64,000 nt of DNA from NCBI GenBank assembly GCA_037951105.1, contig JBAMJV010007398.1:53607-117606 (forward strand). Direction: 5' to 3'. The position numbers were made by a program, and so were the translations under genes. How positions within the stretch are numbered: position 1 is the first letter of the stretch; every line of letters starts with the position of its first letter. The DNA comes from Echinarachnius parma. Taxonomy: Eukaryota; Echinodermata; Echinoidea; Clypeasteroida; Echinarachniidae. Below, piece after piece: positions 2,326 through 44,983 of the stretch. The notes under the pieces were generated by a model that saw only the letters and a list, made by a program, of their open reading frames with translations, did no database searches and was not told where the DNA came from.

Positions 2326-2373
2326 TATAGTGTGGAGAGTGTTAAGGGCAGGAGAGAAAGAATCAATGCTAGA

Positions 2374-4835: not shown

Positions 4836-4867
4836 TAAGTGGGAATAGGGTAACGTTACATCACACA

Positions 4868-5203: not shown

Positions 5204-5253
5204 AGATCTGGGGTAGATGTGAAGATGTTACATCAATTAGCTCAACTTTGTTC

Positions 5254-7957: not shown

Positions 7958-8215
7958 TTAAAGGGACTTTTGTCCAAATTCTCAAAATCCAATTGGAATT
8001 CTAGCGGTTCCCTCATAACTTGTTGTATTTGTATTAACAATAGAAGCATTGGACAGGTTTCGGTTTTTCAAATTTCCCTTTCGTTAATAGAATAGTTACG
8101 ATTGAAGTGTTCAGATTTTAAACTATCCACTGGACCGTGTACAAAGTGAGTGCAATGAGTTAGTGAATATCACTTTGCATTTTTGCTAATTTCTCGGCCA
8201 TATAACGTCAAAAGT
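7958..8215 (+). mobile_element. MITE family A, copy 1 (truncated, upstream of the 96-nt exon)
   Basis: Starts TTAAAGGGACTTTTGTCC and shares CAATTGGAATTCTAGCGGTT, GGACAGGTTTCGG, CAAATTTCCCTTTCGTT and TCGGCCATATAACGTC with other A copies. Homology stops around 8215, so the second terminus is missing. It is in the opposite orientation to the copy at 8933-9299, so the two flank the exon at 8453 as an inverted pair. Confidence 0.75.
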
Positions 8216-8452
8216 TAACAAGATGGTTGCGTCATGATTTTTTCCCTCTTTAATTTACCTTATATAAATGTGGTCCTTACGGCTAGGCTGTATGCGATAG
8301 TGTGTCATCGACATTACCTTGTCATTGTTTTTATTCTCTTGTTTTACTCGACATTGGTGTAGACAAAATCATTTTAGAAGGACCTTTCTCGACCCTCTTT
8401 AATAATTTATTAACCATTGATTTTTCTGATGTTCTCATTTCTGTCGTTACAG

Positions 8453-8548
8453 ACGAGATCGCCGCATCGCAGAGCCAGCGGGGACGAGAATGCATTGCCT
8501 CAGAATGCCAACGGACCAAATCGGTCAAATTCTGATCGATTGAGTGAT
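8453..8548 (+). CDS. AUTS2: Internal coding exon of AUTS2-family gene (96 nt, phase 0/0)
   Basis: The exon runs from an acceptor (tttctgtcgttacag) to a perfect donor (GAT|gtaagt) and is 32 codons long with no stop. It opens TRSPHRRASGDE and ends PNRSNSDRLSD, a basic/serine-rich then S-D-R-L-S-D profile. Vertebrate AUTS2 has SSSRERLSD at the end of the corresponding exon (from memory), directly before the two microexons also found here in the same order. AUTS2 is a nuclear protein that, in vertebrates, joins PRC1 complexes with PCGF3/5, recruits CK2 and p300, and activates neuronal genes; a cytoplasmic Rac1 role is also reported. This exon lies in the poorly ordered N-terminal part, well before the proline-rich and Auts2 domains. 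FBRSL1 is the close vertebrate paralogue, so in an invertebrate this is best read as the single pro-orthologue. The 32-codon length is close to the roughly 29 residues of the vertebrate exon; the first half is not conserved. Confidence 0.85.
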
Positions 8549-8932
8549 GTAAGTAACATAACAAGATTGGAACATTGATTTTAAGATGAAGACGGGTGTC
8601 TGAATATTTTGTGCTTGACGGAAGTATGTAGATTGGATTTAAACTAAATTAGGAAAAACATTTTCGGGGAAAAGTAACAATTTATTGATGTGAAAGTATA
8701 TAGATCTGCATTCATGCTAAACATTATAAAAGGAACACTGTTTTCTCAAGATTGGAGCATTGATTTTGAAGATCAAGATGGAGGTCTGAATGTTGTAATG
8801 TAGTAGACGGAAGTATTCAAATTAGATTAAATTGCAGTAAGTATATAATTTTCGGGGGAAAAATAACAATTGATTGATTCTAATGGAACTGTTTTGATAA
8901 GAAACACAATATTTGTTTGACTAGTTCTCTTG

Positions 8933-9299
8933 TTAAAGGAATCTCGTAACTTTGTTGACATGTGCAAAAAGTGATGATTGGTTGATATAATGTATATTGT
9001 TGTTATCTATTATGTCCACAGGCTATTGTGTGAAAATTTCAAGTCAAATGGACGTTATATGGCCGAGTAATGAGCAAAAATGCAAAGCGATATTCACTAA
9101 CTCACAGCACTCACTTTGTACACGGTTTCAAAACTCCAACGGATATTTTATTATCTGAAAACTTCAATCGTTCATATCTTTGTAACGAAAGGGAAATTTG
9201 AAAAACCTGTCCCATGTTTTGTTGTCAATACGAAAGAGAGAACTGCTAGTTTTCCAATTGGATTTTGAGGATTTGGACAATGTTACTAAGTCCCTTTAA
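8933..9299 (-). mobile_element. MITE family A, copy 2 (367 bp, TTAA-flanked)
   Basis: Runs from TTAAAGGAATCTCGTAAC to GTTACTAAGTCCCTTTAA, with TTAA at both ends. The interior is shared with copies at 22474 and 60649 (GATGATTGGTTGAT-like, ATGTCCACAGG, GTCAAATGGACG, GCAAAAATGCAAAG, CACTTTGTACA, CTTTGTAACGAAAGGGAAAT). T2/Kolobok-like termini; no coding capacity. Confidence 0.82.
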
Positions 9300-9300
9300 A

Positions 9301-9433
9301 GGGAACGGTTATCCCTTACATACCCCATAGCGTACGGGAACCTACTGGGTACATACCCCATAGCCTACGGGAACCTACTGGGTTAACTACAAAGTCTACA
9401 GGCATTTCAGAAATCTTGAAGGGAATGGGTTAA
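9301..9433. mobile_element. D-family element with internal duplication
   Basis: ATACCCCATAGCGTACGGGA and ATACCCCATAGCCTACGGGA repeat in tandem, followed by CTACAAAGTCTACAGGCATT and a GAATGGGTTAA end. This is the reverse-complement D consensus with a duplicated half. It abuts the right end of the A-family MITE. Confidence 0.6.
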
Positions 9434-9572
9434 TTTTTTATGACAAATGATGGAAGAGAATATCAAATGCGCATTTAATGGACTTATACAAAACATGCAA
9501 TGCGATGGGATTTCTGGGAAGAGGATCCTAGCAGGTATCAGGGAAACAAGGTGTACGTGTTTTGAGTATTCT

Positions 9573-10000
9573 TTAAAGGGTACCATTACCCAAAAATAAT
9601 ATTCTTATAAATGAAAGGTAACACCTTCAGTAGTCCATTCCATCAACAAGTTCACAAAAATATGTTTCCAGAAAAACAAAAATATATAATTGGAAAACGC
9701 ATCACCATTCTAAAGCATGCGTTCATGGGTCTGAATTACGAAGACTAATTTGTCCAGAGTGAACGAATCGTCCGGGATTCTATTGTCTACAAACGTACGC
9801 GTGAATAGCATTGGCGCACTCGCAAATGTTTGGCCCGTATGGAACCAGGAAATAGTAGTGGTTCCGTAAGTGGTGGAAATTAATTGCCTTGTTTATGAAT
9901 TACACAACCCTTTGAAAAATGTTGGGTATCTATTTGATATCACAAAACGATACCAAATCATAAAACTATGTGTTGTTCTTTGCCTGGTGGTCCCCTTTAA
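9573..10000. mobile_element. MITE family B, copy 2 (428 bp)
   Basis: Bounded by TTAA: left TTAAAGGGTACCATTACCC, right GCCTGGTGGTCCCCTTTAA. It includes TTGGAAAACGCATCACCATT and GTCCGGGATTCTATTGT, shared with the copy at 61028. It is longer than copy 1 at 1382, which appears internally deleted relative to it. Confidence 0.8.
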
Positions 10001-10312
10001 TACATCACACACCTCCCCATCTCCTCCATATACTGGGAAGATTATGTAGATATGAGGCTAGGCACTAGTCCCACGTGTAGGAATAGCCGTAGGGTGTGTT
10101 AGTAGAGACTAGTGGGAAGTAAACGAGAGAGGGAAGAAAACCCGAGTGAAATCAATGATGCCTTGATGAGATAACATCTGGGAGGCTAGCCCCATTTTCA
10201 GACAAGAAATTTATTCAGTGTTTGTTTACGTTCGTTATACAACATTCAGACATAATAATGTTGTAATTTAAAGCGCTATGAATACTCTTGTGAATAAGGC
10301 GATATCAAATAA

Positions 10313-10400
10313 CTGTTATTATTATAATAATAATAATAATAATAATACGAACATTTGTATAGCGCAGCTACTATAAATATATACTCTACTGCGCTTATAA
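10313..10400. repeat. (TAA)n with TATAGCGC motif, retroelement-tail-like
   Basis: An (ATA/TAA)n microsatellite followed by CGAACATTTGTATAGCGCAG. Similar TATAGNGC or GCGCTATATAAAT motifs next to TAA-rich runs occur at about 24570, 40480 and 51590. This resembles a LINE/SINE 3' tail seen widely in marine animals; the body of the element is not evident. Confidence 0.45.
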
Positions 10401-10994
10401 GAAGCTCCTTTTTAAGTGAACAAAAACAAACGTACAAGAAACAGAAAGTACAACAATCAATCTAGTTTTCTAGTTTCGCTATATTATACATCCAAGAATA
10501 TGCATTATGTCATGTTGCATGACCATGGAATATGCGAACAGGTCAAAGGTCATGCATGGATGGAATGCGCCCAGCCGCATCTGCTTTCGTAAGCTCTTCC
10601 CAGTTGTACGTAGTATGTTTGAATTGACGTTCCCATGTTGGCTCCGTGTCATATGACAGTAGGATGTACATTTAAAAAGAATATAACAAAGCTCCAAAGC
10701 TAGAAGAAACATATTAGACTATAAGACTATAGTCTAGATAGAGTATTGGAAAACGCATCATTCAGACACAACATTTTTCTTGTAATGTCAAGCAAACATC
10801 AATTGCCATGTGAACGTCGTATTACCATACATACATTGTTCCATACAATGTTTTTCATGCACGTGTGAAAGGGTGGGCAGTAGGATGAGTATGGCCCAGA
10901 GCGCCGAGGCAAATGTAATTTGTGTTGTGTATGAAACAAAGGAGAGGGCAGATCCCTTACTGCGAATCCACCGGGGCACACTCCTGCCATTGAT

Positions 10995-11810
10995 CTGTCG
11001 GCTTCATTTACACCGCAATTAACAAACAAAAAAATAAATAAAGAACACTCTTATGTGACCGGCCGTGTGTATGGTTGAATATATGGCAAAGGATTATTTT
11101 CCAAATATATGTTCAGGATCTTGTGTGTATATCATGGCTGTCGGCATTATTTGCACCGCAATTAACAAATAAGACCAAATAAAGAACACTCTTATAGCTC
11201 AGTTTGCTGGTTTGCGACCGGCCGTGTGTACGGCAAGATTATTTTCCAAATTTATATATGTTCAGGATCATGTGTATTTTAGTGACTTGAGGCTTCATTT
11301 ACACTTCAATTAACAAATAAGAACAAATAAAGAACACTCTTATAGCTCAGTTTTCTGGTTTGTGACCGGCCGTGTATACGGCAAGATTGTTTTCCAAATA
11401 TATGTTCAGGATCATGTGTATATTTTGTGAATGTTGGCTTAATTTACAATGCAATTAACAAATTAGAACAAATAAAGAACACTTTTATAGCTCAGTTTGC
11501 TGGTTTGCGACCGGCCGTGTGTACGGCAAGATTATTTCCAAATATATGTTCAGGATCATGTGTATTTTAGTGACTATCAGCTTCATTTACACTGCATTTA
11601 ACAAATAAGAAAAATCTTATAGCTCTGTTTGCTGGTTTGCACCTGTGAGTTTGTATGAATATTTGACAAGGTTCTCATATTTTCTAAAAATATATATATG
11701 TTCTGGATCATGTGCATATTTGTTGTGACTGTTGGCTTCATTTTCTCCGCAAATAAGAATGCTCCTATGTAGCTCAGTTTGCTTGTTCGCGACCAGCATT
11801 TGGTTGAATA
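10995..11810. repeat. Tandem array, six units of about 145 bp
   Basis: GGCTTCATTTACACCGCAAT recurs with minor changes near 11000, 11144, 11292, 11437, 11580 and 11735, spacing 143-155 bp. Units also share GACCGGCCGTGTGTACGG and ATATGTTCAGGATCATGTGT. Later units are shortened or diverged. Confidence 0.88.
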
Positions 11811-12090
11811 TGAAGTGATTTTGAGGTTTTCTGATGTAATTTCCTGAAGAGTTGATACATTTATGTTAGTTTATGTTTATGTTAGTTTGATGACAAATTA
11901 AGTCCTTACATTTTTTATATTTTTAAGGATTACTTCAAAACCGCAGCAAAATATTCATATAATTCATGCAATTGATGAGGTAGTCCATACTCCATATCCA
12001 TATTTAATACTGGAGGAATCTAGAATATTTACACTCCCCTCGATTAAGAAATAATGTTTTTCTTTTTTGTTCTTTTCTATCAACTTGCAG

Positions 12091-12126
12091 GCAAGTACAC
12101 ACTCTCGATCAGGCAGTGGCTACTTG
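12091..12126 (+). CDS. AUTS2: 36-nt coding microexon of AUTS2-family gene
   Basis: The acceptor is pyrimidine-rich (ttcttttctatcaacttgcag) and the donor is TTG|gtaagt. The 12 codons read ASTHSRSGSGYL in phase 0, directly continuing ...RLSD from the previous exon. The vertebrate counterpart is SSAPSSLGTGYF, also exactly 12 codons in its own exon (from memory). The shared core is S....S..GY followed by an aromatic or large hydrophobic residue. Ser/Thr/Gly composition suggests a flexible, phosphorylatable linker, but no domain is visible. Its length is a multiple of three, so skipping would keep the reading frame. The exon itself opens with GCAAGT directly after the acceptor CAG, so a GC-type donor sits at its very first base. 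An isolated 36-nt ORF would be weak evidence; the call rests on both splice signals, the phase, and the order with its neighbours. Confidence 0.85.
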
Positions 12127-13959
12127 GTAAGTATGATCAAAATATGAAATTTAAATATTAAATGTAGGGTAGATGTAAGAACCTCGGTCTATAAAACCTT
12201 TTTTGAATGGAAAAATATCGATTTGTTTCCCTAGCAGTTACTCAGTTTTCTACATAAGTTGATCTATATTGTAGTGAAATGTGAAATGGCATGTTTATAT
12301 TAGATTGCATGCTTCAAAAACGAATTAAGATGGCCGTGCCATAAAGAATTGTCTTTCATCCCCAAAAATAATAATCTAAAAGTCAGTCAATATTTGCAAA
12401 TAAAAAAATGGCAAGTAAATATTTACTTTTTAATCAAATACAATTTGTTCACATGATGAAACCAACCCGAGCATGCATAACTCTCACACCCTGGTTCGTG
12501 CTTTTCTCTCTGCAAATTTATCGAAGCTCAATTAACTGGGAATAATTCTTGTGGTTGTACGTGCGTGCGTGCGTCTTGAAGGAGAGCAGGCAGTGACAGA
12601 CTCTCGTGAGCACACAATCAGACACACTCAAATTTGATTTCTTTGTGTTCGTGCTTCGCCAAGCATGAAATGACCACATTAAATCGCCAGCGACTTGCTC
12701 AGAGTGAGATGAGGCGTGCTCTTGTCGTCCTCCAAACGCAACCGGCGCAAGAAAAACAGATGGATTGGGCTTCCTGCTGAAAGGGAAATGATGCAACGAC
12801 GCACAGAGAGGAAGGGGTGAAGACGGGCGTGCATTCATTCCCACCCTGAGATCCGATGACAATTGAGGAGCTTCAGTATGGATGTACGAGTTCCTAAGTA
12901 CTCGGGATTGGCGGGGAAAGGTTTCGTTTCACTGCTAATGCCCACATTAGGCGTATGCCCGGTGTTAGTTCACTATTAGCACATGCAGAGTGGGATGCAC
13001 CATCACGCCTCCCTCCGTCAACCAGGTTAATTCAACGAGGATATGTTCCCGGTGATGATGCGCGGTCTTTAGCACTCGGCAGTCTTTCGTCTCCTGTCTT
13101 TACGGTTGCTAAGAATTACACACCCCTAGCTCTCCGTGCCAGGGAGGGGGATTTTGTTAATGCGTGGCATGAATTTAGATGGCACATCTCCCAATCAGCT
13201 GAGTGAAAGCCGAGCTGGGGTGGACGTGCCTTTTACCAGAGTTCGTATGACATCATTACCGCATGCCTCATGCCTGCGATTGTCTTTCACGTTTCCCGTC
13301 GTTGCTCGAGCCACGGAAGCTTTGGCTTCATATCGATTCATCACTATGCAGAATTATTCCGACCCAGTTCTAGTCTTTCTCACCCCCTCCGCCGATGCTC
13401 TCCATCATCATGTTCATGCTGCATCCTTTAGATTCTTCATACATCTTACATTTCACACACTTTCTGCACCGTTGCCAAGGTTATTACATTACAACACTCC
13501 ACAAATAAACAGCATGCCAGGGAATTTTCCTTGCTCTTCAATTATGAAATAACATTAGTTACATCTTGAAGGATAGTTCTGGCATATATATTTGCTGAAA
13601 AAAAGACACAGATAATATTACATTATTAATATTATGTTAAGATTATAGTAAATATATGATGCTTAGATATTGACAGAAAAAAGAAGAAGAATGCTTAAAA
13701 TATCAAATTCTGCACATTTCGTTAAAGATAAATTTATAAACTACACATCAGTTTGGGCCTGTGTTTTTCTCTGGGGCACAAGAATGACTTTATAGCGATT
13801 AAAAATAGGGTGTTTTGTTTGCAAATGACTTGACAGCTGTTTTGCAGGTTACACTAATGAATACCGATAAGGGACTAACGCACTGTTCATTCAGTCATTC
13901 ACGTACAACATTTCTTCCGCATGGTTCACCCTAAGCTGTAGTCATGCGGTACTAAAAGA
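12127..13959. other. Low-copy intronic DNA downstream of the 36-nt microexon
   Basis: No repeat family was recognised. The part from about 12480 to 13550 is richer in G+C. Open frames there (for example 13136-13552) have no recognisable domain and no convincing splice frame. Confidence 0.45.
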
Positions 13960-14330
13960 TGGCTGCCTGGAAATTGCTGCACTTTGTATGGGGCTAATGC
14001 CTGCCGCTATTAGGCTCTTAAATGCCTAAACGAGTGTGATTAGCTTGTTTGCCGCAACTGTCTAAGGCGGATAATTTACCATTAATGGACTTGTTCTCCA
14101 GAATTAGGAGAGGGGGAAAATCATGGGAACGACTTCTAATCATTCCCCGCTAGCTCTTTACTTTTTGGGGGATGCCAGACAGTAAATGTTATGACCATGT
14201 TTTTCCTTCTCCCAATTAGATGTCCCTTCTAATGGCCTATTGAGTGGAAATATCTGAAATAAAAGGCAGAATAATTACGAATGGCCTATCGGGGCATGCA
14301 GTAATTGTTCTGAAAGGTCATGTATGTCTT
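13960..14330. promoter_or_regulatory. Candidate conserved noncoding element
   Basis: Low-copy stretch with many homeodomain-type cores: GGGCTAATG, GCTATTAGG, GATTAGC, ACCATTAATGG, GAATTAGG, CTAATCATT, CAATTAGATG, TCTAATGG. There is no repeat structure or ORF. Motif density alone cannot prove an enhancer. Confidence 0.35.
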
Positions 14331-14734
14331 TCCATGACGTTTGCATTTTAAAATGGTTTGTCATTATTGCCATTTGTTTTCTTAGTTTTGATAGTGGACT
14401 TCGTTTTTCAGACATTAGCTGCACAAATTGTGGGGTCACTTCAAAATTGCGTAAAGCAATTTATGTCAATAAATATTTGAGGAATCTAGGTTAAAAACCT
14501 TTTTATGGAGAGGTACACAGTATGACACAACAGAAATATTCGGGACCGTGTATGAACTAAGGCAGGTTTTGTAAATTTGATCCATAGTTGATATAGACCT
14601 ACACAGATGTTAATACATGGGACTGAAATGCAAATAAAATGATATACATTTGAGTGTTGTGTTTCTGTTGATATGAATATGTTACCTTCTATCCTTTTGT
14701 CTGATAATTTTTGCTATTTGTCATTCCCTATTTT

Positions 14735-14890
14735 AAATACAGTAATTAATTCTCAACTGCCTAATTTTTCCCCTACAACTTACTTATAAATACATAGATA
14801 TATTTCCTTTTGTAGGTAAGTATTTTTCATATTAATGCAGTAATTAATTCTCAACTCAGCTGCCTAATATTTTACCTGCAACTTGTTAGG
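14735..14890. repeat. Two-copy tandem duplication of about 97 bp
   Basis: CAGTAATTAATTCTCAACT occurs near 14741 and 14839, each followed by CTGCCTAATNTTT and NCCTNCAACTT. The first copy carries the zero-length splice site; the corresponding place in the second copy reads TTCTTTTGTATGTTTG and has lost it. Confidence 0.7.
14801..14825 (+). promoter_or_regulatory. Candidate recursive (zero-length exon) splice site
   Basis: TATTTCCTTTTGTAG is directly followed by GTAAGTATTTTTC, so a pyrimidine-rich acceptor joins a consensus donor at 14815/14816 with no exon between. This is the motif of ratchet points used to remove long introns stepwise in Drosophila and in some long vertebrate neuronal genes. 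It lies 2.7 kb into a 16-kb intron on the coding strand. Use is unproven. Confidence 0.45.
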
Positions 14891-15339
14891 CATAATTTCT
14901 TTTGTATGTTTGAATTGCTCGATTTATCCTAACATCTAAGGACATGTCAATACTCAACATATATTTTGATTTATGGCAGCGCAATGATGGAGTACGCTGC
15001 CTAGCATCGTGTGATTGATTCTACAGGTTGATTCATATCACTCCAGCCAGACCAGCTTTGCAAGGAATGTTTTTAGAAACCGGTTTACGGGGATGATGGA
15101 TCTGTTTTGATGTGTCTTTTCAGGTGTGTGTTCACAGAGAACAAATCCGGCTGGATTGTGTTGATTGATTTCCCTTTGGTTTATTTTCACCGATGACGAC
15201 GGCGACGCACGATTCACGATTTTGTTCGTTGCTTGCATGCTTGCGAGCCGTGTGGAGTTGGCCGTTCATCATTTCAATCAGCCTACATCTTTGTAGCTGC
15301 AAGAATAGTTGTCTTACAGGGCTGCTTGTACAGTCAATC

Positions 15340-15650
15340 TGATTTTATGTTTATGAAAACGCGCTCCAAAATTTTGAAACCGTATTCAGCAGTTTATGAT
15401 TAATGTTTGTCATACAATTCTGCAAGTGTACTATCAAACTGATATGAAAAATACACTTCAAAATGTTGAAAACAAAATTTAGCATTTTATGATTGATGAT
15501 TGTCATACATACAATTCTGCAAATGTTCTTTAAATCTGATATTATGAAAACACAATTCAATATTTTGAAAAGATAGCTAGCAATTCATGATTAATGACAG
15601 TGGGTATTATATGAAAATGTTTATAACTGGTATGCTTTATGATTAATGAG
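15340..15650. repeat. Tandem array, three diverged units of about 95 bp
   Basis: TGATTAATGNTTGTCATAC, ACAATTCTGCAANTGT and TATGAAAANNCNNTNCAANA recur in order three times. Very AT-rich. Confidence 0.6.
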
Positions 15651-17190
15651 ACAAGTTTTAGGTTTAATTCATTGCCATTCACATTTTACATTATTAAAAC
15701 TTTTTAATATCATCTTTAATCGTAAAAAAAGATGTCTTAAAATTATTTATGATTTGTTTTCACTGAAGCAGCATTGGTTGTTTGCATGCGAGCTATGTGC
15801 AGTAGGTCACCAGTCTCTTCTGTCCAGTTCTTAATAATAAATTGTTGTTTGATCCGATTTCATTCAAACTAATCTCTTCTGAAATTTTGCTGCAAAATTA
15901 TATGAAGATGTTTTGGATTTCTTCAAAAACATATTTCTGCAAAGTGATTTAATAGTTAATAATATTTGTGCAAACTTATTTATAACAATATTTTTAATCT
16001 TTTCACAAATATTTTGAATATATGCAAACCTAGGTAAAGATAATTCTAATCCCTTCAAAAATATTTCTGCAAACCCATACACAAATATATTTAAATCTCT
16101 TCAAAATAGTCTTACAAATTTCTATTTAAAGATATTTGTAACCTCTTTCTATTTTAGGAGTGCAACCAATCAATTTTACATATGTAAATTCAATTAGTTT
16201 GTTTGAGGTAAACATAAATCCCATGAAAGATTATATGTAAGAACATTCAAAAATTGATATTTTTGGAAACCATACATGGCACTTTAAATAAAACTACAAC
16301 AACAACAACAGCTTTACAGAAATTCATAACTACAGTCCTCAAGTATCTTGTTTGTTAAAGCTTTTCTAATTCAGCATTCGTAACTTTACAAATGAATAGA
16401 GACTTTATAAGCATCAATTTCCTTCATTTCTGCTGGCAAGCCCACATAATTACTATGGTTTATCTCCCCTTCGTATGTTTTCACTTAATTCCAGGTCCTT
16501 TGTCAGTGCCTTATTTTATAAACCCCTTCAAAATGGCTTCTGTAATCCATGAATTCCTCCCTGTTTGCTTGAGCTCACATCTATATCTATTTCAAAAACA
16601 CCCATGTAATGAGGTCACAAGGTTTGTGAAAATACTGCAAACTCTTTTTGGATGACTATTTCATGTTTGAAGTAAACTTGTGATGAATATTAAGACTTTA
16701 GAATTGAAGAAAACATGTCAACATGTAAATTACAAGTCAATGAACTATCTGATGTATCAACTATCTTTATTTAATCTCTGCAATAATATTTTGAAGAAAA
16801 AAAAGGTAATGAGACCACTTCAGAATTTATAAGTATGATAATTTGCAGCGCCATCGGCAAGATAAGCAGAATAATAAATGGAGACTAATATTTAACAAAT
16901 GTTTGCATAGTGAAAATCATAAAACAGAAGGAAAGAGGGAGAACATACTTAAAGCCCAAACAATGGATCATAGTCATTTTCATTATTTATTAAAGAGCAT
17001 TGAAACTATTCATCGTTATTAACAAATTGTACTTCATCTAGTAAATGTCTCTATTGTCACCCATTTTCCTTTCACTAGTTTTACTAACTTCTATTCTGGT
17101 ACCTTCCAGCAAAGATGTTTTCTTTTATATTGGCGCAAAATAGGCTGCTGTACTTATAAGCTAGGGTAGATGACAGCTAGAAACTATGAA
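15651..17190. other. AT-rich low-copy intron, no feature recognised
   Basis: Contains diverged AANATATTTCTGCAAA-like words around 15900-16130 and a short CAA repeat near 16304. There is no exon or transposon terminus that I can support. Confidence 0.4.
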
Positions 17191-17204
17191 GTCCTAATAA
17201 ATGT

Positions 17205-17347
17205 CCAACCTTCCTATAGTGGCCACCACCGATGATTCCTTGATGGGAAGAACAAAGTTACGGAACCTACCCATAAAGGTCACCTGCCTTTAATGGCCAC
17301 TTGTCTTGTTTCCCTTAGGAGGTCACTATACACAGGTTTGACTGCAT
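17205..17347. repeat. Dispersed repeat K, copy 2
   Basis: Contains GGTCACTATACACAGGTTTG and CCTATAGTGGCCACC, matching the copy at 2124-2325 and the fragment at 37418-37495. Confidence 0.5.
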
Positions 17348-18547
17348 TTCAAAACTATAACTTAAAATGTGATAGTACAAAATAGAACAGAAGTGGTGGT
17401 GTGGTTTATTATTTTTGTTATTCGGAAAAAGAAAAATCCGTAAATTGAAAAACGAGATGGAAGGGTTGCCCATTTATATTCCGCTGTCAGGGAACGACAG
17501 ACAGAAGTCATTATGCTTTGTTGTATGTTTTTGTACCCCTCGGCGAAAAACATTGAATTACTTGGTGCTGCCACATTGTAATAATACGGCTCTCCTTAAT
17601 AGTAGGACTCGGGAGGGCCGAAGGGCTCGCATGTATCTTGTTGCTAACAATTTTCATGGGTGTAACACAAACCGCGAGAGCCGACGGCTGTGTTTTGTTT
17701 TGATGGTGAATCCAGTAGGAGGAAGTGTAATAAGTAAAAAATGGCGTAGAGAGTCGGCCATCGCCTCAGATTGTTACAAAAAGTAAAGAAGTACTTCTCT
17801 TGAAAGAGTTCCCATTCTGTCGTATCCACTCGCGACTCGACTGTTACCCCTAATGTTTTTTTTCCGCATTCCGGTTGCGAAAATATTGTTGTTGGGTTTT
17901 GAGTTTCATAGGTGCTCATATATGCCACAACACGCTGTAGGGGATAAGTGTACGTAGTGGTTTTAGTGTTTGTGTTATGGTATGGTATGTCCCTCTGTTA
18001 CGTACTTGTTGCTTTTTGGCAAAAAAAGCGTCCCTTAAATCGCACCATGAATTTGGCATGCAGTATTGTGTTAAAGGTTTAGAACTAGAGAAGGATTTGA
18101 TTCAGGCAGATATGGCATCAAAACAATTATTATTGCATAGCAATGATGTTGTGAACACTTGAAATATTATGTATTTCTTTGGGAAAATTAGTCAATTTAA
18201 TGTATACAATTTAATTTAATTCAATTCAACAGCAGAATATTCATTAAATATTCATACCTCATATTGATAAACCAACAAGTTCACAAGGCATCCTGAGATA
18301 TGGATATCATAAGGGACAGTGTTGATAATGGAAATAAAAGGATTTGTTTTAAATACAAAATATTTAAAGAGTGCCAAACAATTACAATTAGCAACTTTAA
18401 AATGTGCTTGAGTTACAAAAAAAAAAGAGTTAAAAAAAGAGCTCCTTTTGGTCGACTTTAGCATTATCCAAATAACACCTTTTGAAGTACATGTAGGCTA
18501 ACATAGATATAGATTAAAAAAACAAAACAACAAGATTAAAAGTATTT
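17348..18547. other. Low-copy block with short open frames, no gene recognised
   Basis: A plus-strand frame (17415-17786) and a minus-strand frame (17644-17928) overlap here. Neither shows a known domain, and composition is uneven (ACTCGGGAGGGCCGAAGGG, GCGAGAGCCGACGG). It could be a decayed mobile element; this is not established. Confidence 0.3.
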
Positions 18548-18620
18548 TTAACCCGTTCACTACGAGATTCTGAAATCCCCATAGACTTTGTACATAGCCC
18601 ACCCGTAACCAACGGGTTAA
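18548..18620. mobile_element. Small TTAACCC element family D, copy 2 (73 bp)
   Basis: TTAACCCGTTCACTACGAGA at the left and AACGGGTTAA at the right. The internal TCTGAAATCCCCATAGACTT and TGTACATAGCCCACC match the copy in 31158-31292 almost exactly. Confidence 0.75.
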
Positions 18621-18899
18621 GGGAAAAGGTTGAGCGACAGTCTGTTTTGTCATTTTAAAAACCTGTTTTGTAATGTTCTTATCTTTTAATAATAATGTCT
18701 TTTATGTAATTAAGAATAAAGAATGATCAATAAAGAAGAAATGAAGACTATATAACGCAGATTGTTTTGATGGTGATGAGTAGCTTCATATGCACTTTAT
18801 TTCTATCAGTTGTCAGTTTATGTATTGTCAGTGAATTGTATATCGACTCATTGCAGTGTTGATCATCATACAATTAGAAATCTGAAGTAGATGTAAAAA

Positions 18900-19285
18900 C
18901 ACTGTTTGTAATAATCCTGCAAACGTTTAATTTCCGTTACTCACCCTCGATCTATGTGAACATTGTTTCTCTGACCGTATAGGGGAAAACCTGAGGCCTA
19001 TACATAGTATTCAGCCCTAACTCTGAACTGGTTACATACATTATATTCAGGTGTACTAAGGAAGACCCCCATTCCCATCATAATAATAATCCTGCCAAAG
19101 TCTAATTTCAAAATAACCTAGCCTTGATCTATTTGATAGTTTTGTGAATATTTTTTCTTGACCTTTTTAAATAGTGGAAAATATATTCATAGTATTCCGA
19201 GGCATATTCATAGTATTCAGCCCTAACTCTGGACTGGTAACACATGCAGATCAATCAAGGAAAAAATCCCCCTCCAGTCCCGTCC
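18900..19285. repeat. Two-copy tandem repeat of about 180 bp
   Basis: AATAATCCTGCNAANGTNTAATTTC, ACATAGTATTCAGCCCTAAC and CTCTGNACTGGT recur in order. The second copy contains a small internal duplication of CATAGTATTC. Confidence 0.65.
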
Positions 19286-19499
19286 TATCCCTTCATTTCA
19301 CTTCACCTTTTTTCCCCAAGGCATATATATCTTTGATAGTTTTCGAGAATTTTGTGAATCTGCGAAATTGTGCAAAACATGGCATATTCACCATTTTCAA
19401 ATTGACATTGAATTGTTCTTGTACAGTACAAATGGAGCATCCAGATCTAGGAAGTTTGTACAGTATGTATCACGATGTATCTCAATGGACCCCCTCCCC

Positions 19500-19770
19500 C
19501 ACCCGTCCACACACACATACACACATACTCACTTTTTAAATTTTTTTAATTTAATTTTTTTACCACATCGGGTCTTCTTTATTTCAAAATGCTTTCACAA
19601 AATAATACAATAACAAAAAGAAACAAGAATCATATTATCGAAAATAATATCGCTAGTGATATCCGTTTGTCTCGCAATGTATGGTCAACATGGAATCTAA
19701 GAGATCACACACACACACAAACAGACGCACACGTATGCACACATACACACACACGCACACAAACTCATCC
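19500..19770. repeat. (CA)n-rich microsatellites
   Basis: Two imperfect CA-rich stretches (about 19508-19530 and 19707-19760), separated by AT-rich DNA. The open frames across them are repeat artefacts. Confidence 0.8.
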
Positions 19771-19949
19771 TCACTTGACTATTTTTCCTGAAGTAAATCC
19801 AGGCGGTTTAATGGACTTGAAAACCCCATTACCCGAGGTAGCCGGGGATTAGGGTCGTGGGATGAAGCCGGGTTAGGGAGAGTTATGGAGAGGGCTTCGT
19901 ACATGGCCCTGGTAATCCTCTCATTCTGAGCGGGGATTTAGCCGCCTGA

Positions 19950-20350
19950 GCCCCCATCATCCCTGGCTATGAATTCTGAGAGGAGCTGGCGAGGGATGAA
20001 GACATCTAGAAGACATCTCGGCGTAGGAGATGGATGGGTGAGGGGGCGCAAGGGGGGGGGGGGGTGGAGGGGTTAGCCCCTACCCTTCTTTTGTCTGAGC
20101 CCCCACCATTCTTGTCTATGAATTCTGAGAGGAGTATCTATGCGAGGGATGAAGGCATCTTGGCTTACAAGATGGGCAAGAGGGGAGGGGGGGGGTGCCC
20201 CTATTTTGCCTGAGCCCCCACCACCCATGTCTATAAACTCTCAAAGGAGGAAGATATGAAGAAGACATCCAGGAGGTATATGAGGTGGGCAATGGGAGGA
20301 GGCTAAGGGGGTTTAGCCCCCCTATCCTGTTTGGGATTGTGTCCCCTTCC
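19950..20350. repeat. Degenerate direct repeats, left arm of a large inverted repeat
   Basis: GAGCCCCCACCATTCTTGTC, ATGAATTCTGAGAGGAG and GAAGACATCTNG recur about three times. The segment around 20045-20120 (GTGGAGGGGTTAGCCCCT...CCCACCATTCTTG) is the reverse complement of 20905-20985, giving a palindrome with the G element in its loop. Confidence 0.65.
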
Positions 20351-20375
20351 TCTCTTCTCCCCCTCTGCCCTAACC

Positions 20376-20816
20376 ATATGTGACCTTACACCACAAAACG
20401 ACCAATAAGTCGGGAAAAATGATTGTGCTGCTTTTCATAACACATTAAAATAGAAGTCATTACCTTTAAAATGGTATATCATTTGTCATATTTGGACTAT
20501 ACAAACCCTCTCAAAATGAACACCAAAGATTTAGAATATGGCTGAAGCATTTTTAAAATAAGGGAGAAACGGGCCATTTAAAATATCAGTTTCCATTAAA
20601 GCGCTGTAATAAGATCAAATTTATTAGAAGAAAAAATAATATTTAAACATGATTTCCGACGCGCAAAATGTTACAGAAGCTAGATTAAAATATGCTCATT
20701 CAGGAAATACCAAAATCCTAAATCTCATATTTTGAACAAAATTTTACTATTTTAGCTCATAAAAGAGCAACTACCACAGCGACATAACGGTCGTTTTGTG
20801 GTGTTAGGTCACATAT
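20376..20816. mobile_element. MITE family G, 441 bp with 28-bp TIR
   Basis: The left end ATATGTGACCTTACACCACA and right end TGTGGTGTTAGGTCACATAT are inverted repeats with one mismatch, extending through AAAACGACC. The interior is AT-rich and noncoding. A possible TA duplication was not resolved. Confidence 0.75.
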
Positions 20817-20904
20817 TGGGAGCAACATGTATGTGAAGCATTGTGTTGACAAATTGCCCCCCCCCACCAAGAACATTTATGCCCCCTAAGTGCTCCCCTT
20901 TGTG

Positions 20905-20985
20905 GCAAGAATGGTGGGGGCTCAGACAAAAGAGGGGCAGGGGCTAACCCCTCCACCCCCCCCCCCCCCCCATCTTCTTGCCCCT
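20905..20985. repeat. Right arm of inverted repeat around MITE G
   Basis: Reverse complement of about 20045-20120, including GTGGGGGCTCAGACAAAAGA-type sequence and a C tract (about 20956-20971). Confidence 0.6.
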
Positions 20986-21539
20986 CTCTACCCCTTGTCT
21001 CGATTGACCATGGCTATGCCCTTGTGATGCAGAGAGGAAAGGTATCCATATTGAAGACATTACCTGATGATAGTGTCTTTGTGCAGCAGAGTTTGCTAGC
21101 TAATGATGACTTTCATTGGCCTGAATTCTGAAATATGAAAAAAGGAAATCAGGTTTGATGAGAGAGAAAGATGGCTGACCAATCTGCACACGCCTCGAGG
21201 AAGAAGAAGATGTTGGTGGTACAGGGAGTGATGGGTTGATGAGAACAGCATAACAGCAAAATCAACATTTATTCATGTTCTCTTTTTCATGGGCTACCTT
21301 TCAAGCATTAAAATAGCTTCTCAAATTTGTTTTATATTGAACGCGATGCACATCTACGGGCTAGGGCTCTTATATCATATTTTGGGCTCTTTTTGGCTAA
21401 ATCACCCTAAGCCCCCCTCCCCCCCCCCCCCCCCATTTGTGCTTTGTTTTTCTTCACTGGATGAGAAGTGTGCGAAGTGCTACTAGTACTGCCTAGAGCC
21501 TGGCTGATGTAGCCTGCAACTTAGTCTGAAGTGTGTTAT

Positions 21540-21735
21540 CATCATCATCATCCTTCGTCTCTCTTTAAATGTTGTTGGTCATTTCTAAGAAATCCTAGAT
21601 CATCATCACTTCATGTCTCTTAAAATGTGGTTGGTTGTTTCTAAGAAATCCTATTATCATCACTTCATGTCTCTTAAAATGTGGTTGGTTGTTTCAAAGA
21701 AATCCTATCATCATCATGTCTCTTAAAATGTTTTT
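21540..21735. repeat. Tandem array, about four units of 50-60 bp
   Basis: ATCATCATCACTTCATGTCT, CTCTTAAAATGTGGTTGGTT and TCTAAGAAATCCTA recur with small changes. Confidence 0.8.
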
Positions 21736-21829
21736 GGTTTTTTCAACAGAATCCACCATCTTGGAAATTTATATTTTTGATTAGAGCCTGTAGGATACGA
21801 CCTTGAACTTGGCCCAGTGTTACTGTTAT

Positions 21830-22050
21830 GCCCGGCGCAGACAGAGCCGACTTGACCCGATCCGACTGGTTTTCAGCCTCAGTATCTCAGTATGCGCTGC
21901 CTCAGGACTCCGGTTTTTCCAGTCAAGTGCCAGTCGGAGGTCATTCGAGGCCGATTCAACATGTTGGAACGGCTCCGGCTGAGCGAAACTGACTCTAGCC
22001 TGACTGAAAACCAGTCGGATCGGGTCGAGTCGGCTCTGTCTGCGCCGGGC
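21830..22050. mobile_element. Snap-back element, 47-bp TIR with one mismatch
   Basis: Positions 21830-21876 (GCCCGGCGCAGACAGAGCCG...) are the reverse complement of 22004-22050 with 46/47 identity. The 127-bp loop also holds CAGTCGGAGG-type words related to the arms. G+C is far above the surrounding intron. TTA occurs just outside both ends (one extra T on the left), compatible with a 3-bp duplication. RNA through this site would form a long hairpin. Confidence 0.8.
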
Positions 22051-22473
22051 TTAAGTTATCATAATCACCTCTTCTTCTGTGAACTGTATTGATCCAAACG
22101 TACTTGGAATCCCCCATTTTTAATGTTTTTTACCTTGTTCATTCACTTGTAATTTTTGGCTACAAATAGTTGAATAAAAATACCTTGAATTTAATTGAAT
22201 TTGAGATTTCATTATTAATCAAGATTTTATTCCCAAAAGTATGGGAAGAGTTCAAGGTTGTTTGATGTTAAGTTCAATTATAATAGATTTTAATATTTTC
22301 CCTTCTCTACATAAACATTTAACATGACATTTTTCTGCTACTCCGTATCTATTGGTAATGATGCCAAATGGAAAGTGTAAATGAATAAGTTATGAATGTG
22401 GCACGAGCAGACGTGACATTGATATTTTCAATGCCACATGATTGAATTATTTGTGTATGTGACCGTCTATCAT

Positions 22474-22858
22474 TTAAAGGGACGTAGTAACATTGTCCAA
22501 ATCCTTAAAATCCAATAGGAATTCTAGCGGTTCCATCATACCTTGTTGTATTCATATTAACAGTAGAAGCATGGGACAGGTTTCGGTTTTTCAAATTTCC
22601 ATTTCGTTCAAAAGATATTTACGATTGAATTGTTCAGATCTATGTTAAATTGTCTGCAGGATAATTTAAGCCATGTACTAAGTAAGTGCAATAGTGAATA
22701 TCACTTTGCATTTTTGCTCATATCTCTGCAAAAAAAACTCCAATTAACGTAAAATGTTCACACATTACTTTGTGGACATATCAGATCACACCAATACACA
22801 TTTTATAAACCACGCATCACTTTTTGCACTTGTCAACAAAGTTACTAGATCCCTTTAA
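22474..22858 (+). mobile_element. MITE family A, copy 3 (385 bp, TTAA-flanked)
   Basis: Left TTAAAGGGACGTAGTAACAT, right GTTACTAGATCCCTTTAA. The interior (TCCAATAGGAATTCTAGCGG, GGGACAGGTTTCGG, TCACTTTGCATTTTTGCTC) matches the other A copies. It is one of the more complete copies and a good basis for a family consensus. Confidence 0.85.
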
Positions 22859-23074
22859 CATGAATATTAAGTGTGATTAGTATTCTGTCTGCGTGGGCTT
22901 TGAATTTGAGTGTTAACTTGGCTAGCTGTTTTTCTTGATTGCATTTGCTAGATCTATAATGTTTTGTCACCATATGGTTGGTTGGTGTGCATGGTCTGGT
23001 GAACAGTAGGACTGAATAAAGTGGGTTAGTTAGAGAGCTGCTTAATATGTGTAGACTTTGAGAAAGACTAGGCA

Positions 23075-23960
23075 ATATCTAGGTTGGTTTCAGAGCTAGA
23101 TATTAAACCTAGGAGGACTTGAAGAAAGACTAGTGTAAACAGCTTAGTGGTTGAGTGTCTTTCATTTAAGACTATTATTTGAAGTAGTCCAGTCTAGAAA
23201 TGGAATGATATATAAAGAGGCCTTTGAGTGAGACTAGGCTGTTGATTTTTGTATAGTTAGTCTAGGAGCATGTAGAGAAAGACCAGAGTAAGTGGGTCAG
23301 TTTTAGGGCTTTGGGATGATCTAGATTGGGGCACTAAGGATGAGTTGCTGCTGTCTAGAAATTAACCTGTGAGGTCTTTGAATGAGACTAGGTATGTGGG
23401 TTGATTTTCCATAATCAATCTACAAGCACTTGCAAACAACTAGAGTAAGTGGGTTGCTTTTTGTGTACTAGTAAGCTAGATTGGCAAGCTGATGACGATT
23501 TGCTGTTGTGAGGTCTGTAACTGAGACTAGGCTTGTACGTTGATTTTCCATAGTTAATCTACAAGCACTTGGAGAAAGGCTAAATAGTTTGTGGGTCAGG
23601 TTTAGTGTTAGCTGGGTCACTGAAGATGCATTGCTGCTGTCTAGAATTTGATATGTGAGGTCTTTAAGTGAGACTAGGCATGTAGGTTGATTTTCCTTGG
23701 TTAAAGGTAGTTCGGATTCGTAAATCAGCCGCCTGGCGCCATCTTTGCATGCCCTGCGCACGGTGCGAAAGTCAGTGTTATGCAGTGCGCGCAAACTAAC
23801 CTAGTTCAAAATGGCGACCGGGGGTGTAGCATTCCCACGCTTGATGATCTTTAATCTTGCAGCACTTGCAGAGAGACTTGAGTGAGTGGGTCGGTTTATG
23901 CAGTAAGCTAGATTTGGTAGCTGATGATGAGTTGATGTCTAGCGCATGATCCCCCCGTGT
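23075..23960. repeat. Tandem array, about six units of about 145 bp
   Basis: GAGACTAGG recurs near 23230, 23384, 23523 and 23670. Units share GGTTGATTTTCCATAGTTAA, TCTACAAGCACTTG, AGTAAGTGGGTC and GTCTAGAA. A 150-bp insertion splits one unit at 23701. Confidence 0.8.
23701..23854. mobile_element. TTAA-flanked insertion inside tandem array (about 150 bp)
   Basis: The array unit normally reads CATAGTTAATCTACAAGCAC (for example 23551). Here it is interrupted: TTGGTTAAAGGTAGTTCGG at the left and GATGATCTTTAATCTTGCAG at the right, so TTAA flanks the insert on both sides. The insert is GC-richer (GCCGCCTGGCGCC, GGTGCGAAAG) than the array. The termini share only TTAAAG / CTTTAA. Confidence 0.75.
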
Positions 23961-24017
23961 GATGGGTAAGATGAGATGAGATCAAGGCGGCTCAATCCGG
24001 ATTACCGACTGTCAGTT

Positions 24018-24400
24018 GTAACATGCAGATCAAGCATTGAAGACCCCGCCTTCATTTACGAGGTACTTGGTATTTGTTAAGGTTGTTGTCACGGGCAAAA
24101 AAACAATGATCATTGGTAGAACGAGCAAATTAGTCTGATCAAATTTCCATGTCAAGTTTTGTCTTTTGAAGAAATCAGCATTTATAACTAAAAATGAAAT
24201 AACATGCGGATCGAGCATTGAAGCCCCGGCTTCATTTACTAGGTACTTAGTACGGTTGTTGTCACGGGCAAAAGACAATGATCATTGGTAGAAGCGAGCG
24301 ATGATGATATTAGCATTTAAATTGTATGTGTTTGCAAATTAGCCTGATAAAATATTCCTGGCAAGTTTTGGCTTTAGAAGATATCAGCATGAATGAAAAA
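24018..24400. repeat. Two-copy tandem repeat of about 181 bp
   Basis: AACATGCNGATCNAGCATTGAAG begins each unit (near 24020 and 24201); GTTGTTGTCACGGGCAAA, ACAATGATCATTGGTAGAA and CAAATTAG also recur. Confidence 0.8.
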
Positions 24401-25689
24401 CAAATAAAATAAAAAGAAAACTTGCTTGTAGGTTACATGCGTTTATTGTGTTACACGAAGCTCTCTGACGCACAATCGTAGATATTGTCGCATTCCTTAT
24501 GCAGATTTAGAAAACAACAGAAATATATTTGAGTTCTTCTCCCAAATTTTAAACATAATATTAAAAGTAATACCTAATATTTATATGGCGCTTACTGTAA
24601 TACATGATTATTTATGAAGTACCAAAAAGGACCTACCTTTTCTCAACTGCCGATTTGAATAAACGTCAGCAAAATTTAGAGGAAATGGTTCTGGGACCGA
24701 GATTTCCCAAGAAATAGGGTGGGTTTTAATAAGTTCTCTTTTATTAATGATGATGATGATGGTTTGATTGGTACGGTGTTGTTTTTAATGCCATGCACAA
24801 ATGCAATTAGCACTTGATAGTAATGACTGGCATTAACAGATACATTTACAATTTTCATTTACATTGATTCATTTACCATTCTATCAATAAAACGTTGCAT
24901 ACATATGTAAAATTATGCGATGTCTTGTGATTGTGATTGCATTGATGAATGCAAACCATGAAAAATGTGATAAACACTTCATTAAAATCCAGTGATGATA
25001 TAACAGAAAAAAAGTGACTGTATTACAAATTTGTGTTACTTTTAATCCCAGCAAATATAAATTACATTATGAGTATAGTACTTGTAGGAAAAAGCTGATT
25101 GGAAGAAAACTTTTTAATTGGGTTTTTAAAGTCTTCATTGATTTTGGGCAGGTAATTATTTTTTTAAATGATAAAAACCAAGCAAAATAAAAAAAAATTA
25201 AAAAATGACTGACTAACAAATGAAAACCTGCATATTTATTCATTGCACAAACAAATATGCCTTTGATGTACAAATTACAGTGGATATCAAGTCTAGAAAA
25301 TTTGCAGATGAGCATTGACATTTGCACCAGTTAAGCAATAAAGAAAAACCCACCAAACATGAAATTCAGTATATAAATGAAATTGATCTCTATCTTGTGA
25401 CCTTTCCGCAAATATTCTCTTCTAAATCAAGCAGAAGTGACAAGTTACTAGAGAGTGAGTGGAAAAAGAGATTGTATGATATGATATCATGATAATCAAA
25501 TGCTCCTGTGATATGACAACGATGAAGTACGGTAGCTGTCATTCATACTAAAAGTAATGGCAAATATTTGACTTTTAATACAATGGCGGGTGAAGCAAAC
25601 ACACTGGACTATAATCAAAGATAAACCACTCTAGCGCTACTAATATTTTGGGTATTACTCGTGACATTTTCTCTCTTGTTTTTTATTTG
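24401..25689. other. AT-rich low-copy intron
   Basis: Contains a TTTATATGGCGCTTACTGTA motif near 24580 (retroelement-tail-like) and TGATGATGATGATGG near 24748. No exon or transposon ends were recognised. Confidence 0.4.
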
Positions 25690-26340
25690 GCATCCGTGGA
25701 AGCCTGTTCTTTAGGGGCCATGTGACCTTTTTGTATATTCCTGTTGCCGTGGATTATCCCTTTTGCATTTCGGTTGGTTAGCGGGTATTAAAGCTTCCTT
25801 AGCCTCGGATCCGTGCATAATGAATTGAATGAATCAAATGAAATGGGATTTGCCACACCTTTTGTCATTGATTGAAGTGAGATTATTCGTAATTGATTAA
25901 GGACCACGCATCGGGTGTACACAGCAATGTGACTAATTGAACACAGTGAAGCCGTGTCATTGTATCGATCCCCCCGCTGCAACCGACTAACACGATGTAA
26001 TCAGTATCAATTTACGCGATTAGCGACAGGTCTAATTGATTTAATTTGGAAGTTATTGCCGTTGTTCCGCTACAAAGCTCAAAAGACTTAATTGATATGG
26101 TAGCCGTGAGATAAGCTAATTGTGTGTTTGGTACAGTCAATTTCATTAGGTCCCCCCTTTTTTTTTGCATTAGCTTTGTGCTGCAGACTTTTCATTTGTT
26201 AGGCATTAATTGGTTTTAGATTGAATCAACATCACCAATTATAGATTCGTTGCATTTGGATTTGCATGATGCTTATTTGCCGAGTTCAATCGAGCGAGGT
26301 GCTTCTATTGTGCTGTGGGTGTCATTATTAGCAGAAGGCC
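25690..26340. promoter_or_regulatory. Candidate conserved enhancer: TAATTGA cluster plus octamer
   Basis: TAATTGA occurs at 25890, 25934, 26033 and 26089, with further TAATTGTG (26119) and TAATTGG (26208) sites, GCGATTAGCG, and an ATTTGCAT octamer at 26260-26267. The stretch is free of tandem repeats and transposon ends in an otherwise repeat-laden intron. Homeodomain and POU-factor input is an inference from motif shape. AUTS2 introns in vertebrates are known for conserved noncoding enhancers. Confidence 0.45.
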
Positions 26341-26827
26341 CACACTTTCAGCTAATAGAGGACATTCAAATTTGTACCATTTTCACTAAAGATATGGAAT
26401 ATATATATATGACTTTGCACGGAGATATAGTGTTTCAAACAAATATGTAATAGAGCACACGTTAAAAAAACACTATTCAAGGACGTTCGAAATTCAAACC
26501 CCATCTTTTTCATAGATAGATGATATTGCACGTGGATAGTGTGTTAAAACAAATATTAGACGAGGACACGTACAATGTCATATTAACACATTCATGACTC
26601 GTCCTAAAATACATGGGCTAGGGTCAGTGGAGAATGCATGTCGGACCAAAAATCGGAGCGTCTTCGGGTTAAAATTCTAATTAAGAGAATAACAATTCCA
26701 ACCCCATTTCAGATGATTGATTACATTTACTCATGGAACATGTTAAAAACAAATATGGAATGAGCACACATATATACATACATCTGTTGAAATGTAATTC
26801 ATTCTCAAGCATGTCAGGTTACAAGAG

Positions 26828-26947
26828 TTTAACCCTATGGAGACGATATGAATTTGGTATTACCTGCATTCTCCATAGACCCCAGCCCGAAGTATGTTCG
26901 GGGGTGGGGGGGGGGGGGGGGGGGGGGGCTAGCCCTGAACGGGTTAA
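26828..26947. mobile_element. TTAACCC element family E, copy 2, split by poly-G
   Basis: TTTAACCCTATGGAGACG at the left, TTACCTGCATTCTCCATAGA and CCCAGCCCGAAG inside, CTGAACGGGTTAA at the right. A 23-nt G run (26906-26928) lies in the right half. Confidence 0.6.
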
Positions 26948-26998
26948 TTTTGCCATAACAAACAATGGATGAGGCGAGAGATGGTGTCAACATGATTG

Positions 26999-28050
26999 AT
27001 TGATGTTGTTGGCTCCGGAGTGTAAGAAAATGATTACAAGCAAACACATGTAATCATTACAACATAAATTTCAGCAGTCATTTGCTTCATTTAGAACATA
27101 ATTGTGATGGATGAGATGATGGTGATCAGTTGACTAACATTGTATAGTGGAGTTATTTTCCTGATTTCATCTCATAGATAGATGTAATAGTTTCAACCAT
27201 GAATGTAGCATGAAGTCTAATGGTTGATTGCTATATGCCATTTCGGGATGGTGAGATTTCTACATAAGCAATTGTTTGACGACAGCATTTTGATTGATGA
27301 CTTGATGATTTGTCATTTGACTAAATAGGGGAGTTTCTTTCCTGTTTTATCAGTTTCTTTCCTGATTTATCACAATGACAGATTTAACGGTTTCAATCAT
27401 GGTTATAGCATGAATTCTTGTCATCAGTTGCTTTATACCAATCCTCAATGGCAAGGTCACACTTAGGCATTTGTTATATAAGATAATTTTGATTGATGAC
27501 TTGATGATTCATCATTTGACTAATATTTTAGTAGAGTTTGTTCCCTGATTTATCTCAATGACAGTGTAACAGTTTCAATCATGGATATAGCATGAATTCT
27601 TGTCATCAGTTGCTTAATACCATTCCTCAATGGCAAAGTCTCACTTAAGCAAATGTTATACATCATTTTGATTGATGACTTGATGATTTGTCATTTGACT
27701 AACATTTAGTGGAGTAATTTTCAGGATTTTTCTCCCAACACAAAAGTAACAATCTTTTGTGAATGTAGCATAGTATCATCAGTTGTTTTATGCGATTTCT
27801 AAATTGTTCTTTTGACGAGGGCAAGTAAAAGTCGGATTTGAACCAGTATTTGGAGGAAAACGAGAAAGTTCCCATATTTGCCTAAAGTGGGTGAGCAAAA
27901 TCTGCAAATTTTGTGAAATAAATCATCTTTGATATGTTTTTCAATGATTTTAACTTTGTCGCGTGTAACAGATTGTACAAGTTATGTTGTAATGATTACA
28001 TGTGTTTGCATGTAATCATTTTCTTACACTCGGGAGCCAACAACATCAAT
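26999..28050. mobile_element. 1.05-kb element: 66-bp TIRs enclosing a tandem array
   Basis: 27001-27066 is the reverse complement of 27983-28048 with 64/66 identity (TGATGTTGTTGGCTCCGGAG ... / ...GGGAGCCAACAACATCA). Each arm also contains GATTACATG...CATGTAATC, an inner palindrome. Between the arms are about four tandem units. There is no ORF of note. The right end is about 42 nt from the acceptor of the 30-nt microexon. No clear target duplication was seen; class undetermined. Confidence 0.75.
27067..27830. repeat. Tandem array, about four units of 180-200 bp
   Basis: TTTTGATTGATGACTTGATG recurs near 27291, 27490 and 27670, with a diverged form near 27104. AATCATGGNTATAGCATGAA, TTCTTGTCATCAGTTGCTT and CATTTGACTAA are shared. 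The array lies wholly between the 66-bp inverted repeats. Confidence 0.8.
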
Positions 28051-28091
28051 AATTTTTCTCCCATTTTCTCATTTTCTCATTTTCTTAACAG

Positions 28092-28121
28092 TGTGACAGC
28101 GAGAGCGATCAGGACACACAT
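28092..28121 (+). CDS. AUTS2: 30-nt coding microexon of AUTS2-family gene
   Basis: The acceptor follows a run of three CATTTTCT-like pyrimidine repeats and ends ttaacag; the donor is CAT|gtaagt. The ten codons read CDSESDQDTH in phase 0. The vertebrate exon at this place encodes CDSDSDQEEK, also ten codons (from memory): seven of ten positions are identical and D/E is swapped at one more. The acidic S-D/E-S-D pattern is a typical CK2 target, fitting the known AUTS2-CK2 link, though phosphorylation here is inference. It is preceded by a 15,965-nt intron and followed by more than 35.8 kb without a recognisable next exon; the vertebrate continuation (ASDASSEKLF...) was searched for by eye and not found. 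A 1-kb inverted-repeat element ends only about 42 nt before the acceptor. Confidence 0.88.
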
Positions 28122-30034: not shown

Positions 30035-30490
30035 TGCAATTAGCATGTCGCTAACAGCTAGAAGATGTGACCTAATTCTGAGAATTTAGTCATAAACTAA
30101 AAGTAAAAAATAATCTACATAAACATATAATAATAATTAGCATGTCGCTAAAAATGGCGAGATGTGACCTAATTTGGGGAATCAAGTCATAAAAACTCAA
30201 ATTTACATATATACATCTAATAATAATTAACATGTCACTTATAGCAAGAAGATGTGACCTAATTCGAGGAATTGAGTCATAAAAATATAATTAATGAATA
30301 AATAAACATCTAATGATAAATTAACATGTTTCTAACAGCTAGGAGATGTGACCTAATTCGAGGAATTGAGTCATAAAACTAAAATTAGCAAATACATAAA
30401 CATCTAATAATAAATTAACATGTTTCTAATAGCAAGAAGATGTGACCTAATTTGTAAAATTGAATCATGAAACTAAAATAAACATTTAAG
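30035..30490. repeat. Tandem array, five units of about 95 bp
   Basis: TAATAATTAGCATGTCGCTA, AGAAGATGTGACCTAATT and GAATTNAGTCATAAAAC recur near 30041, 30136, 30228, 30325 and 30415. Confidence 0.85.

Positions 30491-44949: not shown

Positions 44950-44983
<34 letters not shown>

Follow-up and report, generated by a model that had tools for sequence, protein, structure and literature searches.

Exon and intron structure of the locus

The stretch of DNA analysed here, 64,000 nucleotides (nt) in all and referred to below as the window, contains three short predicted coding exons on its forward strand that very probably belong to a gene of the AUTS2 family. The first exon (8453–8548) is 96 nt long and comprises 32 codons, the C-terminal residues of its product being NSDRLSD; the second (12091–12126, 36 nt) comprises the 12 codons of ASTHSRSGSGYL, and the third (28092–28121, 30 nt) the 10 codons of CDSESDQDTH. 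All three are of phase 0 at both ends, and each is preceded by a pyrimidine-rich tract with a YAG acceptor and followed by a GTAAGT donor. By direct reading and by script, the acceptor and donor are TTACAG and GTAAGTAACA for the first exon, TTGCAG and GTAAGTATGA for the second, and TAACAG and GTAAGTTATC for the third. The two introns between them, of 3542 nt (8549–12090) and 15965 nt (12127–28091), both run from GTAAGT to CAG, as read directly and checked by script; the longer one carries several tandem repeats.

When joined, the exons give 162 nt in which frame 0 is the sole open frame, with stops in both others, and a peptide of 54 residues, TRSPHRRASGDENALPQNANGPNRSNSDRLSD / ASTHSRSGSGYL / CDSESDQDTH. 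An earlier, sequence-only reading of this DNA had proposed three phase-0 exons of 96, 36 and 30 nt with GTAAGT donors. Their positions, lengths and open frame are all borne out here, while the joined peptide, given there as 58 residues, is corrected by the script to 54.

A splice scan that makes no use of homology (open intervals of 21–330 nt that satisfy an acceptor tract rule and end at a GTAAG or GTGAG donor) returns five phase 0-0 candidates on the forward strand, three of which are the exons described above. Its rules were written after the exons had already been seen, and the test is thus blind to homology, not fully blind. Four of the five candidates have a GTAAGT donor, and the reverse strand gives a single phase 0-0 candidate. 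Across 200 windows simulated with an order-3 Markov model, one strand per window, GTAAGT phase 0-0 candidates average 0.20 and never exceed 2, compared with the 4 observed. Exon 12091–12126 is also the top match to the human AUTS2 12-mer among 204 phase-0 AG/GT intervals of 36 nt on both strands, and exon 28092–28121 the top match to the human 10-mer among 208 such intervals of 30 nt; when GTAAGT is required, each is the sole interval of its own size. Taken as an ordered pair, the 12-mer and 10-mer score 60, whereas the null scores average 18.4 and do not rise above 35.

All three exons are very short, and the scan finds a further GTAAGT candidate, at 43947–44126, that has no resemblance to AUTS2, as might be expected if all were open AG-to-GT intervals arising by chance in non-coding DNA. 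Such an origin is nevertheless extremely improbable, as none of the 200 null windows reaches three GTAAGT candidates and none of 200 reaches the ordered-pair score. The case for the exons convinces by the combination of these tests.

The two remaining forward-strand candidates are both unlike AUTS2 in sequence and were set aside as exons of this gene. The fourth GTAAGT candidate (43947–44126, forward strand, 60 codons) has no Pfam match and includes CGCGAA-rich inverted sequence, so that it is perhaps a repeat; the other, at 7054–7098, is a weak phase 0-0 candidate with the donor GTGAGG.

Relationship to the AUTS2 family

Placement in the AUTS2 family, and an alignment to human AUTS2 as a check on it, had been put forward in the sequence-only reading. 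In that alignment the joined peptide matches human residues 204–230 with 15 of 27 residues identical and 20 of 27 positive (∼40 bits, local score 83) and with the pieces in the right order, which supports membership of the family. The residue composition of the peptide is biased and the evidence amounts to 27 aligned residues, so that the peptide could conceivably be part of another Ser/Asp-rich protein that resembles AUTS2 by composition. Among 20,000 composition-preserving shuffles of the window peptide, however, the highest score is 47 and none reaches 83, and the match crosses three exons in order, with borders where those of human AUTS2 are reported to fall. We regard this explanation as very unlikely.

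The matched segment lies in Region 3 (36R) of Sellers et al. (2020, PMC7732068), which according to the available text of that paper comprises human AUTS2 residues 199–240, spans exons 3–6 and is among the regions common to AUTS2, FBRSL1, FBRS, aAUTS2p and Tay. In sequence, the joined peptide agrees with this family-wide region. The occurrence of Region 3 in invertebrates is already published: the same source reports it in aAUTS2p of protostomes, where that of the ant Camponotus floridanus is 50% identical to human, and in Drosophila tay bridge, a member of the same family as the window gene, where it can still be aligned but is only 22.2% identical to human and more diverged than the window peptide.

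A degenerate pattern made from the third exon picked out little else. One match among viral_contigs lies inside an open reading frame (ORF) of 767 residues, in another frame, and is not exon-like; nine matches among genome_contigs are all in entries titled as bacteria, about the number expected by chance (roughly estimated as 7).

We conclude that the window is very probably part of a gene of the AUTS2 family, which is most likely the single-copy, ancestor-type aAUTS2p of an invertebrate, and that its three exons correspond to exons 3, 4 and 5 of human AUTS2. The CpG observed/expected ratio of the window is 0.58 and 18 of its 21 homopolymers of at least 10 nt are G or C, a composition that we take to be unlike that of mammals and birds; this ratio and the frequent long G/C runs presumably suit a marine invertebrate. 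A fish or shark would still be compatible with this composition, as with the lack of any Rfam family at gathering score and of any tRNA gene in the window, and of any transposon-protein match among the 20 ORFs put to Pfam, out of 58 of at least 90 residues in the window. The gene might be a vertebrate paralogue, whether FBRSL1 or a diverged AUTS2 of a fish or shark, in which case it would be silent on the time before the vertebrate split. Long introns suit a vertebrate, and human AUTS2 and FBRSL1 are 54.8% identical in Region 3 (PMC7732068, available text), approximately the same as the 15/27 (56%) found here; these two proteins also share a 46-residue N-terminal stretch that is 73.9% identical (PMC9008325, available text). 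Taking both sides together, we consider a vertebrate origin unlikely. Dating of the exon borders to before the AUTS2/FBRSL1/FBRS split rests on the invertebrate origin of the gene.

Exon borders in human and zebrafish AUTS2

The last two exons of the window correspond, as the sequence-only reading had it, to human sequence, provisionally numbered here as residues 209–220 and 221–230. We take these two segments to be the counterparts of the 36- and 30-nt exons, and the human small exons presumably measure exactly 36 and 30 nt. Both segments fall within Region 3, with junctions implied to lie between codons, and small exons of this kind are consistent with the 42 residues of Region 3 being spread over exons 3–6. 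This numbering places the HX repeat at 525–542 and PPPY at 516; the published HX repeat is at 525–542 (PMC9008325), and Region 6, which is stated to include PPPY, begins at 516 in the published description (PMC7732068). Variant names were tried as a further source of human exon borders and set aside, the numbers found belonging to PDE4DIP and ATRX.

In the available text of PMC9008325, codons split across junctions are described for human AUTS2 exon blocs 6–9 and 15–19. If split codons are confined to these blocs, the 3/4, 4/5 and 5/6 junctions must fall between codons, as they do in the window, where all exons are of phase 0-0; the exact human borders are provisional. Human exons 3–5 resemble the window in the 15 of 27 identical residues, in the order of the pieces and in having, by implication, junctions between codons. 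Given the peptide match, the span of Region 3 over exons 3–6 and the description of split codons only for blocs 6–9 and 15–19, correspondence of the three window exons to exons 3, 4 and 5 of human AUTS2 is the most likely assignment. The borders apparently match the human ones, and this would be mostly an expected case of an old gene structure being retained. Intron positions are commonly conserved between vertebrates and slow-evolving invertebrates. Among the open-access papers listed in searches on AUTS2, no title or beginning of an abstract reports Region 3 exon borders outside vertebrates.

Zebrafish auts2a offers an additional comparison. Its exon 1A is noncoding. Relative to the full protein, 166 residues are missing from the product of a transcript whose starting exon is spliced to exon 4, and 227 from that of one whose starting exon is spliced to exon 7. 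If zebrafish exons 4–6 are the counterparts of human exons 3–5, as we infer, they would comprise ∼61 codons, compared with 54 in the window, and would end three residues from the provisional human end at residue 230. The first exon of the window, with 32 codons, would then differ from the ∼39 implied by zebrafish (61 minus a presumed 22).

The term microexon, used for this set in the sequence-only reading, is an overstatement, as 36 and 30 nt both exceed the 27 nt that we take to be the usual limit. The size bears also on whether the short exons could be alternatively spliced neural microexons, controlled by a programme of the SRRM4/eMIC type, instead of constitutive ones. Each of the three exons is symmetric and keeps the frame, a TGC stands directly before the AG of exon 12091–12126, and the human isoform AUTS2-202 is reported to use another form of exon 5, which carries a premature stop. 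There is, however, no TGC within 50 nt on the 5′ side of exon 28092–28121, and all three donors are GTAAGT. TGCAG is presumably a common acceptor end in any case, and none of the open-access papers listed for AUTS2 and microexons carries the term in its title or abstract. Regulation of this kind is thus distinctly improbable, and the three are most likely ordinary constitutive exons.

Several observations weigh against the assignment to AUTS2 exons 3–5. The exons are predicted from genomic DNA alone, and the human AUTS2 letters used throughout, in part those quoted in the sequence-only reading, were not taken from a database. Neither Pfam, PF15336 included, nor a PDB search gives a match for the 54-residue peptide. 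In the splice scan, 3 of the 200 Markov windows reach five phase 0-0 candidates when either donor is counted, so that the strength of the result lies in the GTAAGT donors. Without splice constraints the 12-mer is outscored at three other places in the window (29, 29 and 26 compared with 24), and when the human region is used in tblastn, a spurious place on the minus strand comes out ahead of the real exon 5 (E-values of 0.059 and 0.16). The neighbouring exons did not come to light: the human exon 2–3 stretch gives a best tblastn E-value of 0.35 at 16773–16829, which is intronic, and the exon 6–7 stretch a best value of 1.5 on the minus strand, while the splice scan gives no upstream candidate ending in phase 0 and, downstream, 14 that start in phase 0, of which not one resembles human exon 6. 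The missing flanking exons are a provisional result, because tblastn is weak on exons so short, the real exon 5 having ranked only second. In zebrafish, the transcript auts2a-i4a starts from exon 1E and encodes 1082 residues, nine of them unique (available part of the source), which gives 205 missing residues, not 227.

The Pfam region in question, PF15336, presumably lies C-terminal of Region 3 in AUTS2 and would be expected beyond the window if the window gene is orthologous to AUTS2. Sellers et al. report no other Pfam region in AUTS2 (PMC7732068, available text).

Flanking introns and surrounding sequence

The sequence before the first exon (1–8452) would be the end of the preceding intron, and that after the third (28122–64000) the beginning of the next, no convincing upstream exon or exon 6 being found in either. 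Since no neighbouring AUTS2 exon was found, these introns are provisionally put at at least 8.4 kilobases (kb) and at least 35.9 kb. According to the available text of PMC9008325, human AUTS2 exons 1–7 are likewise separated by long introns, of 16–301 kb, whereas the two introns contained in the window, of 3.5 and 16.0 kb, are shorter. The long flanking introns agree in kind with human AUTS2. One species does not show that they are ancestral, and the statement of the sequence-only reading that the design of the gene already included huge introns goes too far on this basis.

The Pfam scan of the 20 ORFs gave nothing above the cut-off and did not have PF15336 among its matches; three weak matches below the cut-off (E-values 0.038–0.097) were set aside. 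The longest stop-to-stop ORF of the window (42208–42906, forward strand, 232 residues) has no Pfam match.

Repeats are found throughout the window. Tandem arrays occupy 11092–11615 (units of ∼145 nt) and 30038–30506 (units of 94 nt), the first stopping ∼475 nt on the 5′ side of the 36-nt exon. A dispersed repeat of families D8 and D13 occurs at five places (5254–5309, 18548–18603, 31158–31268, 41323–41378 and 55361–55416), which are 63–98% alike and whose best copies start TTAACCCGTTC with GAGATTCTGAAATCCCCATAGACTT. Two dispersed copies of 162 nt, at 8933–9094 and 60649–60810, are 88% identical, with a third copy at 40851 (62%), and two of 147 nt, at 7970–8116 and 22493–22639, are 89% identical; both sets are likely mobile-element fragments. 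Long runs of G or C are found, for example, at 2352–2396, 26900–26928, 44952–44981 and 60136–60180, the longest homopolymer being of 30 nt.

Possible function and implications

In the gene as we picture it, the spliceosome would remove the long introns and join the three exons, which would encode part of the N-terminal portion of the protein, adjoined by a counterpart of exon 6 that either lies outside the window or was missed. The product would be a conserved linear motif, short and rich in Ser and Asp, that has two sites of the casein kinase 2 (CK2) type (CDSESDQD, compared with CDSDSDQE in human). S-x-x-[D/E] is the consensus for CK2, and the exon encoding CDSESDQDTH retains two such sites, both also present in the human AUTS2 letters. 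The motif may act in docking or phosphorylation within an AUTS2-type variant Polycomb complex that carries CK2, although this role is proposed from a consensus, which counts against it. In Drosophila, CkIIa/b is reported to be part of the complex that contains Tay.

As each exon consists of whole codons and both its ends fall between codons, any one of the three could be skipped with the frame kept. It is possible, though we put it forward tentatively and as somewhat doubtful, that the 12- and 10-codon exons were already separate in the bilaterian ancestor, with their exact sizes and borders, and that the long introns have kept them apart for more than half a billion years, because selection acts either on the regulatory content of these introns or on an option to skip the CK2-site motif in frame.

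In humans, AUTS2 is a brain-development gene implicated in neurodevelopmental disease. Numerous cognition-linked structural variants have been described within the first five introns of the gene (PMC3547868, available text). Should these tiny exons, with long introns between them, prove to be retained in an invertebrate, the unusual layout of the 5′ half of the gene would be ancestral and not a product of the vertebrates, and the short peptide that the exons encode would be a constrained motif worth testing.

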